From Symbiodinium natans (lineage: Eukaryota; Sar; Dinophyceae; Suessiales; Symbiodiniaceae), in assembly GCA_905221605.1 (NCBI GenBank), contig CAJNDS010002722.1, positions 122,501 through 186,500 of the forward strand: a DNA stretch of 64,000 nucleotides. Reading direction: 5' to 3'. Both the position numbers and the translations under genes were made by a program. Positions 1 to 64,000 of this stretch are shown piece after piece. Below the pieces are notes generated by a model. The model was given only the letters and a program-made list of their open reading frames with translations, was not told where the DNA came from and ran no database searches. How positions within the stretch are numbered: position 1 is the first letter of the stretch; each line of letters starts with the position of its first letter.

Positions 1-136
1 CCCTCATCATCTCCTGAAAGTGAGTTGCTTCTCTGCTGAAGCCCTATGGGCCAGGCATTCTGACTTCTCTTGCGCGGGTCGGGGTTATGGTTAGGCACCG
101 AAACCCTCACCCTCAAACCGTAAGTTCCAAACCTTT

Positions 137-225
137 AGGGTTTAGGGTTTAGGGTTTAGTAGGGTTTAGGGTTTAGGGTTTAGGGTTTAGGGTTTGGGGT
201 TTCGGGTTTAGGGTTTAGGGTTCAG
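137..225 (+). repeat. Telomere-type array (TTTAGGG), left edge
   Basis: Mostly perfect GGGTTTA units with a few variants. It lies 5' of the first visible uS11 exon, inside an intron. Confidence 0.9.
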
Positions 226-274
226 CCCCCCTGAAACGGAGACTGCAGCCTCGAAGCCATTGCCGAGGCCTCAG

Positions 275-3200
275 GTCCGCGAGGGTGAGATCGTGTTCGG
301 TCGGCTGCTCAGTTAGGGACCGTTCTGAACTATGGGCCCGAATAGGGTTTAGAGCTTAGGGTTTAGGGTTCAGGGTTTTTGGGTTTAGGGTTTAGGCTTT
401 AGGTTTTAGGCTTAGGGTTTAGGGTTTAGGGTTTAAGGGTTTAAGGGTTTAAGGGTTTAAGGGTTTAAGGGTTTAAGGGTTTAAGGGTTTAAGGGTTTAA
501 GGGTTTAAGGGTTTAAGGGTTTAAGGGTTTAAGGGTTTAAGGGTTTAAGGGTTTAAGGGTATTTACATGCATGGTACCTTTGTAAAGTCCATTACCCCTT
601 CAAAGGGTTCTGAACTATGGCCCTTGGGGTTTATAGGGTATATATATATATATATATATGAGGGCTTCTAAGGGGTCCCGATTTAGGGGGCCCATAGTAA
701 GGGACCATGTATAACAACCCTCGAAGACTAAACCCTACTTGGCAGCCCTTTTGACCTTAGCTGCCTCGGGACGCGCGTCCCGGCGTCCAGCACGCGCGTC
801 CTAGAAACTTGCGTCTTCAGCACGCACGTCCTGAAATCAAGAGCAACTCTGCACAGAAAGGGAATGTCCCCATGCGTTTTCCGGCCCTGTAAGAACGCAC
901 GCTCGAAACCCTGCACCCTGAACCCGAAAGCTCCGTGCATTTTCCAGGCCTCCTGAAACGCACAGAGCTTTTGCGGACAGTGCAGAGCCTTCTGGATGGT
1001 CCTCATGAGGTTCTTTGGGGGTTCCTGGGGGGCGAAAAACCTCGGAAATTCACACAGTCCTCTGCGGCCCCAAGCCCGAAAGCTCCCGTGCATTTTCCAG
1101 GCCCCCCAAAACGCACAGAGCCTGCTGGGACAGCACAGAGCCTTCTGGAAGGTGTCCTCATGAGGTTCCTTAGGGGGGTTCTGGGGGAATCACGTAGTAG
1201 TGCAAGAATCTCGGAAAACCCACGCAGTCCTTGCGGCTCAACCCGAACCCTGAACCCGAAAGCTCCCGTGCATTTTCCAGGCCCCCCAAAACGCACAGAG
1301 CCTTCTTGGACAGCACAGAGCCTTCTGGCAGGTGTCCTCATGAGGTTCCTTAGGGGGCTTCTGGGGGAATCACGTAGTGCAAAAACCTCGGAAAACCCAC
1401 GCAGTCCTTGCGGCCCTCAACCCGAACCCTGAACCCGAAAGCTTCCGTGCATTTTCCAGGCCCCCCAAAACGCACAGAGCCTTCTTGGACAACACAGAGC
1501 CTTCTGCAAGGTGACCTCATGATTCATGAGGTTCCTTAGTTTGGGGCTTAGGCAGGAATCACTCAGTGCAAAAGCCTCGGAAAACGCACCTCGCGAAACA
1601 CACAGAGCCTTTTTGGACAGTGCAGAGCTGGAATGGGTCCTCATGAGGTTCCCTAGAAAGTTCCTGCGGGGCTAGGCAGGAGTCACTCTGTGCAAAAACC
1701 TCGAGGCCCAAAGCCCCAAACTCTGAACCCAGAAACCGAAAGCTCCCGTGCATTTTCCAGGCCTCCCGAAATGCACAGAGCCTTTTCGGACACAGCTAAG
1801 GGTATTGGAGGGAAAGGGAGGGGAGGGGAGGGGACGGGAACGGGAGGGGAAGGAACGAACTGTGGGAGCGAGCCCCGAAACCCTAAACTCAAAACACAAG
1901 TACCCGTGCGTTTTCCCACCCCCTGGAAACGCACGCGAGCGCCGCATCGCTTTCTACAGACCTGGAGCAGGCTGCGTCCTGAGGAGGATCAGCGGCCACG
2001 TCCCGGACCGCGTCCCCAGACGCGCGTCCCGCGTCACGTCCCGAACGGCTACTAAGCTTTTGACTTAGTAAGTAGGGTTAATAAGGTGGGTTATGGGGGC
2101 TAAGTAGACTTACATGGAGGCGGGGCTGGTTTAGGGTTTAGGGTTTAGGGTTTAACCCTAAACCCTAAACCCTAAACCCTAAACCCTAAACCCTAAACCC
2201 TAAACCCTAAACCCTAAACCCTAAACCCCAAACGACTAATCCCCTAAACCTTGCACCCCCAGCTCACTGAATCAGCGCCAATGGAAGTGGACCAGTTGGG
2301 CGACGAGACACAGCTGGTGGCGTCACCTTGGGCAGGGGCTTAGGGTTTAGGGTTTAGGGTTTAGGGTTTAGGGTTTAGGGTTTAGGGTTTAGGGTTTAGG
2401 GTTTAGGGTTTAGGGTTTAGGGTTTAGGGTTTAGGTTTTCAGGCTCCCCATTGCTTCGCAGTCTTCCCCAGCACGGTCTCTGTCATGGGCTCCCCTACTA
2501 CCCCTCTATACTGCCGCCCCCCCCCCCCCCTAGGTTCCCCCCCATAACTAAGGGTATTCAAGGGGGGTGGCTAGTATAGAGGGGGGTAGAAGGGAAACCC
2601 ATGACAGTGTCGCAATGCAAAATCCTTGACCAGCTTTGGCTTTGGGAGGTTTATTCTTTTTCGGGTCTGGCTTGGCACCTTCAGTCCTCATCCCTACAGC
2701 TAAACCCTCTCCAACCCTCTCAACCCTCTCAACCCTCTCAACCCTGTCAACCCTCTCAACCCTCTCAACCCTCTCAACCCTCTCAACCCTCTCAACCCTC
2801 TCAACCCTCTCAACCCTCTCAACCCTCTCAACCCTCTCAACCCTCTCAACCCTCTCAACCCCCAAACCTACCCTATCCCGCAAAAGCCTACGAAGCCAGC
2901 AAGGTGTGGCCCACATCTATGCCTCCTTCAACGACACCTTCGTCCACGCCTTCGGCCTAGCTGGAGCTGAACCGGGGGGGGGGGGGGCGCTTAGCGGCGT
3001 AGAGTCTTCGGTTTAGGGTGTAGGGTTTATATAGGGTTCAGGGTTTAGGGTTTAGGGTTTGGGGTTTGGGGTTTGGGGTTTGGGGTTTGGGGTGTAGGGT
3101 TTAGGGTTTAGCTTAAGAAGCTTCCCCGTTTTGGGCTGAAGGATGGTTTGGGGTTTAGGGTTTGGGGTTTAGGGCTTCAGGCCTTCAGGGGCTCTCAGCT

Positions 3201-62030: not shown

Positions 62031-62667
62031 GGGGCGCTGGGGGGCTCACGATGATGTTGGCTAGCGCTTCAGTGATGGGATGTTCCCCCTTGCACGGACA
62101 GTCCTTCTTAGGGATCATAAAAGGGGCTACGAGAGTCCCCATTAAGGACTCTTAGTACGCGGGGGAACATCCCAAGTTTAGTGTTTTAAAAAGGTTTTTG
62201 GGTTTAGTGTTTAGGGTTTAGGGTGTTTTTTTCCGCGTGGCTTCTCTAGGATCATCCCGCAATCTTGACCCGTAAGCGCCCCTTCTGGCGGAAGTCCGGA
62301 GCGCCTGCTACTAGGACCTGGAGTAGGCCCTAATTTCATTTTTTTAGGGTTGGGGGGTCCCTTATAATCCCCTTAAAACCAAAAAGGGCACCCTATTTAT
62401 TCCTGGGTTACTCCTGGGTTTATGGATGGAGGGGCAAGCAACAGTAGTCATTTAGGGTGTAGAGTCTAAGTTTAGAGGCTAACTTGCGGGGTCCTGAGTA
62501 GGGAATCAGAGCAAGTAGGTACCTGATATATCCCTAAACCCCAAACTCCTAAGGCACCGGTGCCCTCATTCCCCGCGCAAAGAACCTGTAAACTACGGGC
62601 GCACCCTAAACCTTAACCCCTAAACCTAAACCCGAAACCCTAAACGAGACCCTGCGGGTTGGTTCAG

Positions 62668-62707
62668 ATGTCCGAAGTCCGCGTAGAATGCGAACACGAA
62701 GACTCCG
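62668..62707 (+). CDS. Candidate exon MSEVRVECEHEDS
   Basis: Preceded by ggttcag and followed by the donor GTAGGT, this 40-base island starts with ATG. It may be a start exon or an internal one. A second island at 62932-62965 (QAAKLRPDFAR, GC donor) could be the next exon, but the splice phase is ambiguous. Confidence 0.4.
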
Positions 62708-64000
62708 GTAGGTTCCCTTCCTCGGGATTAGGGTTTAGGGTTTAGGGTTTAAGGGTTTAAGGGTTTAAGGGTTTAGGGTTTAGGGTTTAGGGTTTAGGGT
62801 TTAGGGTTTAGGGTTTAGGGTTTAGGGTTCAGGGTTCAGGGTTCAGGGTTCAGGGTTTAGGGTGTCAAGAACCCAAAAACCCTAAACCCTGAACAGCCTA
62901 TTAGCCCCCTTTTTTCCGTCTCAAGTCGAAGCAGGCTGCGAAGCTCCGGCCGGACTTTGCGCGAGGCCCCCATCCGTGTTCGGGGTTTAGGGGTTTAGAG
63001 GGGTGTTGGGGGTTTGGGGGTTTCTGTAGCCTGAACGCCAAGCCCGAAGCCCTAAGCCCTAAACCCTAAACCCCAAACCCTAAACCCTAAACCCTAAACC
63101 CTAAGCCGTCCCCGAGCTTCATGCCAGGGATTGCAAAGACGATACGCTCCGGGTGAGACTGAGACGCAGTGTGCGTTTCAGGCATTCGAGGATAGAGCCG
63201 GGTTTAGGGTTCAGGGTTTAGGGTTTAGGGTTTGGTCTAGGGTTTAGGGTTTAGGGTTTGGTCTAGGGTTTAGGGCTTAGGGTTTCAAGGGCCTGCCTAG
63301 TTAGGCTTTTGGGGTTTGGGGCGCAGCGCTCGACCTCGATTATCGTGCGAGTACGCGTAAGTCTGCCCACATGTGGGCAAGCTCCCTGCATTGGGCCTCT
63401 CGGACGTGCAGAAACCTACCCAAAACCCTGAACCCAAACCCCAAACCCCAAACCCCAAACCCCAAACCCCAAACCCCAAACCCCAAACCCCAAACCCCAA
63501 ACCCCAAACCCTAAACCCTAAACCCTAAACCCTAGTCCTAGTTTACTCTTGGGTCACCCCAAACGCTAAACCCTAAGCCCTAAACCCCTATACCAAGGGA
63601 CCATGTAACGACCCTAAGAAGAGAAGCGCCTGCGTGGGAGGCTACCTGGGCCTTGCCCGAGCACTGCGCCTGTTGCGGCTTGGTTGCCCCTAAGCCCTAA
63701 GCTAAGCCCTAAGCCCTAAGCCCCAAGCCCGAAGCCCTAAGCCCTAAGCCCTAAGCCCTAAGCCCTCAGCCCTCAGCCCTCAGCCCTCAGCCTTCAGCCC
63801 TCAGCCCTCAGCCCTCAGCCCTAAGCCCTAAGCCCTAAGCCCTAAGCCCTAAGCCCTAAGCCCTAAGCCCTGAGCCCTGAGCCCTGAGCCCCAAGCCCCA
63901 AGCCCCAAGCCCCCAGCCCCAAGCCCCAAGCCCTAAGCAGTTTCGGGAGACTCTTGGTTTTTAAGGCGTAGGTCGAGGTCCAGGTTTTAATGGGTCTAGG
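62708..64000. other. Right end: arrays and variant blocks
   Basis: TTTAGGG/GGGTTTAA 62729-62860, CCCTAAA 63056-63105, TTTAGGG with GGTCTAG variants 63200-63280, CCCCAAA 63429-63510, and CCCTAAG, CCCTCAG, CCCTGAG and CCCCAAG blocks 63688-63945. A possible exon is at 62932-62965; otherwise I see no gene. Confidence 0.7.

Follow-up and report, generated by a model that had tools for sequence, protein, structure and literature searches.

Telomere-motif arrays in the introns of two Symbiodinium natans genes and in the DNA around them

We found that tandem arrays of the telomere-type heptamer TTTAGGG, read on either strand, occur in every tested intron of two genes of the dinoflagellate Symbiodinium natans, uS11 and a Cdc14b-like phosphatase, leave the exons free, and are equally dense in the DNA outside these genes. 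The window, by which we mean the whole stretch of 64 kb that was analysed, covers positions 122,501-186,500 of contig C2410 (304,294 nt) in the S. natans assembly (759 Mb, 2,543 contigs). It contains TTTAGGG 531 times and CCCTAAA 818 times; Tandem Repeats Finder returned 255 rows, and the telomere motif or close variants account for many of the 150 listed. We consider it rather probable (about 0.7) that the arrays result from the expansion of a telomere-motif simple repeat through non-coding DNA, introns and their surroundings alike, and that selection has kept exons and splice sites clear of them. The arrays in introns are then best read as something other than a new kind of intron. They are real, lie on many contigs and, as far as our literature searches go, have remained unreported.

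The evidence comes from 32 introns of the two rebuilt genes, seven in uS11 and 25 in the phosphatase; 26 of them lie wholly inside the window, and the phosphatase gene extends beyond its end. Each of the 32 carries one or more exact TTTAGGG or CCCTAAA runs of at least 14 nt. Heptamers cover 23.0% of the 37,620 intron bases, against 0.5% after base shuffling, and none of the 1,608 exon bases. An initial annotation of this DNA had reported the repeat in all seven uS11 introns, which we confirm (7/7), and in ten of eleven phosphatase introns, where we now find it in 25 of 25. Its description of introns made chiefly of telomere repeats holds for the presence of arrays in every intron tested and not for their share, which is 3-51% per intron with a median of 28.5%.

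The arrays keep away from the splice sites. They start at a median of 26.5 nt past the donor and end 31 nt ahead of the acceptor, and none among the 32 introns touches a splice site, the closest lying 6 nt from a donor and 5 nt from an acceptor. The donors are GC in 22 introns, GT in five and GA in five, and the acceptor is AG|G in all 32. The introns follow the dinoflagellate-type spliceosomal grammar (G[T/C/A] donor, AG|G acceptor, in-frame exon joins), a test that shows only that such sites exist at each frame-true border, as these were set by the aligner's rule or, in uS11, by eye. The published structure of S. natans genes (14.7 introns per gene, with a mean of 486 bp; donors GT 23.6, GC 58 and GA 18.4%; AGG acceptor 97.1%) is alike in its GC-dominated donors and AG|G acceptors, but telomere repeats go unmentioned in the available parts of that source (PMC10666404). 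In our gene models the arrays would be removed with the introns, and the agreement with known sequences is at the protein level. In 12 of the 32 introns the 100 nt ahead of the true acceptor contain at least three AGG triplets, and as many as nine, so that acceptor choice here cannot simply take any AG|G.

The uS11 gene was located by tblastn with a human RPS14 sequence. Eight exons of 20-67 nt join into a single open frame with a stop, and the join matches a dinoflagellate transcriptome protein (P0002) with 98% identity across the entire 131-aa query. Intron borders were placed by eye, guided by the protein match, and all seven introns have a GT or GC donor and an AG|G acceptor. An N-terminal exon was not found, the earliest exon located being that at 275..299. 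The parts of the gene, with exons taken from the exon join, are as follows.

275..299, + strand, first exon found (tblastn with human RPS14)
300..2903, + strand, intron 1 (GT..AG|G; 18% heptamers)
2904..2947, + strand, exon
2948..3429, + strand, intron 2 (GC..AG|G; 51% heptamers; G-strand then C-strand)
3430..3483, + strand, exon
3484..3606, + strand, intron 3 (27% heptamers)
3607..3626, + strand, exon of 20 nt
3627..4204, + strand, intron 4 (17% heptamers)
4205..4259, + strand, exon
4260..9062, + strand, intron 5 (4.8 kb; 17% heptamers; contains MFS reading frames)
9063..9129, + strand, exon
9130..9946, + strand, intron 6 (28% heptamers)
9947..10011, + strand, exon
10012..10659, + strand, intron 7 (23% heptamers)
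10660..10725, + strand, last exon and stop

The MFS_1 frames of intron 5 are two and lie on the same strand as uS11, one at 6643-7011 above the Pfam cut-off and one at 7069-7866 below it; the stretch 6643-7866 may be a nested gene or a retrocopy.

The phosphatase gene was rebuilt by spliced alignment to the annotated S. natans Cdc14b (P0125), with donors limited to GT, GC or GA, acceptors limited to AG, and AG|G preferred; under this rule all of its borders are AG|G. The resulting gene model spans 42,907-71,683, with 26 exons, 25 introns and a TAA directly after its end, and 404 of 404 residues of the join are identical to P0125. The predicted protein matches a dual-specificity phosphatase domain, with weaker matches to TPR and P-loop kinase domains. 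Exon 9 carries what we take, by its motif, to be the phosphatase active-site loop. Exons 21-26 lie just beyond the window, in the contig sequence directly downstream (L004); the parts inside the window are listed below, all exons being from the spliced alignment.

42907..42933, + strand, exon 1 (ATG)
43662..43735, + strand, exon 2
44530..44566, + strand, exon 3
45576..45638, + strand, exon 4
46354..46382, + strand, exon 5
47475..47535, + strand, exon 6
47787..47816, + strand, exon 7
48051..48086, + strand, exon 8
48840..48879, + strand, exon 9
49761..49791, + strand, exon 10
50932..50971, + strand, exon 11
51157..51207, + strand, exon 12
51449..51502, + strand, exon 13
52057..52103, + strand, exon 14
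58762..58797, + strand, exon 15
60669..60699, + strand, exon 16
61154..61216, + strand, exon 17
61490..61525, + strand, exon 18
62935..62965, + strand, exon 19
63641..63674, + strand, exon 20
42934..64000, between exons, + strand, introns 1-19 and the start of intron 20 (arrays in every one, 3-51% cover)

A likely further exon lies at L004 3071-3151 (67071-67151 in window numbering); it ends in AWKPK, is present in the relatives P0123 and P0127, and is skipped in the annotated S. natans Cdc14b. Intron 14 contains a block at 53279-58417 with long frames of 348, 614 and 483 aa, none of which has a convincing Pfam match, the 614-aa frame also lacking a match in the PDB. The stretch at 54-58 kb has not a single TTTAGGG or CCCTAAA, and the block is possibly a recent mobile element.

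The proposal that the islands between arrays are exons is thus borne out for the eight uS11 and 26 Cdc14b exons, which form one open frame in each gene, but many islands are not exonic. The latter include intron interiors, the MFS frames at 6.6-7.9 kb, hairpin elements and the heptamer-free block at 54-58 kb.

An enrichment of arrays in introns over other DNA is not seen locally, an outcome that the initial annotation had itself named as evidence against its reading. The stretch between the two genes reads as follows.

10726..42906, no strand assigned, DNA between uS11 and Cdc14b (24.9% heptamer cover; no gene confirmed)

Cover in the 2-kb flanks is even higher than the 23.0% of the introns, at 31.7% for uS11 and 32.3% for Cdc14b, and the 2.3 kb past the Cdc14b stop have 30.7%. 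Since the arrays are equally dense outside these two genes, they are not specific to introns here. This absence of intron enrichment is local and provisional, because the 10.7-42.9 kb interval may contain a third, undetected gene. The gene that had been proposed at 13.8-23.9 kb is unconfirmed, with no Pfam match in the three + frames and only a few weak exons from an unreliable codon-usage scan. Pfam scans covered three + frames at about 13.8-53.7 kb and 58-64 kb, two + frames at 1-14.1 kb, and single reading frames elsewhere; Rfam (at the gathering threshold) and tRNA scans over the window gave no matches. On the 28 known exon pieces that had trained it, the codon-usage exon finder overlapped 14, and it gave 107 hits against 71 on the reversed sequence; because of its many hits on reversed sequence it was not used for calling genes.

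Arrays are also found on other contigs. We sampled 14 loci (133,362 bp) that were hand-picked by contig number and are hence non-random. Heptamers cover 12.1% of this sample (95% confidence interval 7.2-17.6, locus bootstrap), with a range of 0-28.9% among loci, nine of which exceed 6%. Cut into one-kb tiles (n=133), the sample has 41 tiles without cover and 59 with more than 10%. A single motif thus takes up a large share of the sequence on many contigs, as in a genome-wide simple-repeat expansion, within a small, hand-picked and patchy sample, and it does so as tandem motif away from chromosome ends, as interstitial telomeric sequences do. These data also bear on the idea that the arrays are a local subtelomeric feature or an assembly artefact. 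Their motif is indeed the dinoflagellate telomere motif, according to the available part of one report (PMC11453091), but their presence on other contigs, and their interleaving with the exons of one annotated and one conserved gene, already contradict this explanation here and leave it hardly any credibility. Ten long frames were scanned in six loci with at most 6.2% cover: two encode RVT_2 reverse transcriptases (in L010, with zero cover, and L017, with 6.2%), three have other domains and five have no Pfam match (E 0.001).

How might a telomere motif spread in this way? The arrays are short, with median lengths of 41-59 nt depending on the region. They may have been seeded by telomere sequence copied into breaks, or by telomerase, and would then have grown by slippage, which is suggested by the homogenised variant units that sit among them, such as TTTAGGGT x39 at 23515-23823 and AACCCTCTC x18 at 2703-2861; a further variant array, AGGGTTTA x27, lies at 358-560. 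We discarded the skew of array junction phases toward GGG ends as a sign of telomerase, because mutated edge units can give the same skew. Selection would purge arrays from exons, into which they would introduce stops in all reading frames, and from splice signals. The bias in strand that we describe below, G-rich near donors and C-rich near acceptors, could be what selection tolerates. The C-rich strand is devoid of G and can therefore supply no G[TCA] donor and no AG acceptor, while TTTAG|GG and GG|GTTTAG recur all along the G-rich strand.

Several observations weigh against expansion filtered by selection. The AGG decoys near the acceptors of 12 introns imply that their avoidance is at most partial. 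The reference protein P0125 was itself predicted on this contig and is not fully independent of our Cdc14b join, so that independent support comes from relatives, among them Effrenium voratum, which had already been matched by a first, shorter exon join, and Prorocentrum cordatum. The comparison with the spacer concerns one contig, and the 32-kb spacer may contain an undetected gene. Finally, cover is patchy, with none in two of the 14 loci and less than 4% in three more, a pattern for which a simple uniform expansion does not account.

The initial annotation also raised the possibility of intron gain. One form of it would be that telomere repeats inserted into exons acted as introners and made these introns. 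The idea has some appeal: (TTTAGGG)n itself supplies both splice signals, GT as donor and TTTAG|G as acceptor, the repeat is in every tested intron, and introners are known in dinoflagellates, as far as the available parts of the reports tell (PMC11453091, PMC7789003). However, the arrays stop short of the splice sites, the donors are mostly GC where the repeat would supply GT, and array density is equally high outside the two genes. Direct repeats at intron boundaries are not clearly above chance either: their mean length is 3.25 nt, compared with 2.98 when donors and acceptors are mismatched, and they reach at least 6 nt in one of 32 introns, against 1.7 expected. Among the 32 introns we found no target-site duplication above chance at the borders and no element that includes the splice sites or extends over the whole intron. 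Of the published introner end pattern we applied the inverted-repeat half, and an inverted repeat of at least 8 nt within 30 nt of both ends is present in one of the 32. Intron gain by telomere repeats thus finds no support here and appears very unlikely. Introners with inverted repeats have been described in Amoebophrya and others (PMC7789003, PMC10666404, PMC11114475, in the parts available). Dinoflagellate introners resemble the introns studied here in having intronic repeats, inverted repeats near both ends and proposed hairpins (the same sources and PMC11453091), but the introns studied here have no boundary duplication and no fixed element.

Within introns the arrays show a strand bias. 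Read along the gene strand, 24 of 32 introns have a G-rich array first, 20 of 32 have a C-rich array last (Fisher p=0.005), and the asymmetry between intron halves goes the same way in 24 introns against 8 (p=0.0025). With stricter array calls (runs of at least 14 nt) the bias weakens to 11 introns of G..C type against 4 of C..G type (permutation p=0.025). We thus regard the strand bias in introns as moderate. A G-rich strand near the donor and a C-rich one near the acceptor mean that intron ends can pair, and this raises the question of whether the arrays have been co-opted, the donor-side G-strand pairing with the acceptor-side C-strand in a hairpin that draws the splice sites close to each other and helps define exons of 20-75 nt. 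In predicted folds of the 26 introns of at most 1.5 kb (six longer ones were left out), the two intron ends share 31.7 base pairs on average, compared with 12.1 after shuffling (p=0.004), and uS11 intron 2 is predicted to fold nearly end to end (z -15.7). End pairing exceeds shuffles in 16 of the 26 introns but not in the other 10; since shuffling destroys arrays, what the test establishes is pairing between arrays and not selection on their order.

Four of the 14 sampled loci have too few arrays to pair, and in the other 10, all unannotated, islands running from a C-rich to a G-rich array are shorter (median 116 bp, n=52) than those from G-rich to C-rich (246.5 bp, n=50; p=4.5e-5), the pattern one would predict for exons placed between a C-rich and a following G-rich array. 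In eight array-rich loci among these, C-to-G islands of 60-300 bp (n=41) also have a higher G+C content than G-to-C ones (n=27; 0.58 vs 0.52, p=0.001), and their coding score is higher, though not significantly (p=0.07). Yet within the two known genes the asymmetry in gap length falls short of significance (p=0.30 and p=0.39). Arrays alternate in strand more often than expected over the window and the other loci then sampled (229 vs 198 expected, sd 9.6), an excess that, once split by subset, stands out in the two genes alone (57 vs 43 expected, sd 4.5). Furthermore, several of these measures were taken on the same introns, with overlapping data, and are uncorrected. Co-option of the arrays for exon definition is thus unlikely in our view, and its genome-wide version, a strand-coded aid by which array pairing loops out introns so that a spliceosome using weak GC/GA donors finds exons of about 20-75 nt, is quite unlikely.

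Expansion filtered by selection, which remains our preferred explanation, can be set beside what is known of similar repeats, as far as the available parts of the sources go. TTTAGGG is reported as the telomere repeat of dinoflagellates in general (PMC11453091), and interstitial telomeric sequences are short stretches of telomere motif at non-terminal sites (PMC6410037, PMC7215372). The arrays are alike in being tandem telomere motif at such sites, but differ from short stretches in making up about 12% of the sampled bases and in being present in all 32 introns tested. Another parallel is the (TTG)n expansion of Polarella glacialis, which amounts to 19.1% and 18.5% of two assemblies and, like the arrays of S. 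natans, fills a Suessiales genome with a single simple motif; that motif differs in being trinucleotide and non-telomeric, and the accessible part of the report mentions no strand layout in introns (PMC7245778). Searches for telomere repeats in algal, dinoflagellate or S. natans introns gave no account of them among the matches listed, judged by titles and the starts of abstracts, and the strings 'telomer' and 'introner' are both absent from the main text of the S. natans genome paper (PMC8045281).

Should the share seen in the sample hold, around a tenth of a dinoflagellate genome would be telomere motif, much of it within genes. S. natans would then be a natural system for studying the spread of such repeats and the way splicing deals with up to nine AGG decoys just before the true acceptor, and it would mean that telomere probes and telomere-based calls of contig ends may mislead in S. 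natans. The strand layout deserves further attention most of all; it gives a testable hypothesis on intron definition.

Some minor observations concern other elements and loci. By eye, two MITE-like hairpin types with inverted arms of 15-50 nt recur in the window, one at 14071-14214 and 21248-21406, the other at 2480-2607 and 20217-20379. Outside the window, the codon-usage finder suggested an array-free multi-exon gene in L008, a candidate that we rejected, as its 31 hits compare with 23 in the reversed control. On the - strand of the same locus the finder predicts a pair of 443-nt exons spaced by about 8.4 kb (605-1047 and 9032-9474); they perhaps represent a tandem gene copy, although the finder is unreliable there. 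A genome-wide search with the uS11 family PF00411 gave matches on contigs C913 and C782 (L001 and L002, which have no telomere repeat), the uS11 of the window not being among them. Lastly, the protein in a record labelled Clostridioides difficile (P0001) is an internally duplicated 40S S14 of eukaryotic type, and the record is probably mislabelled.

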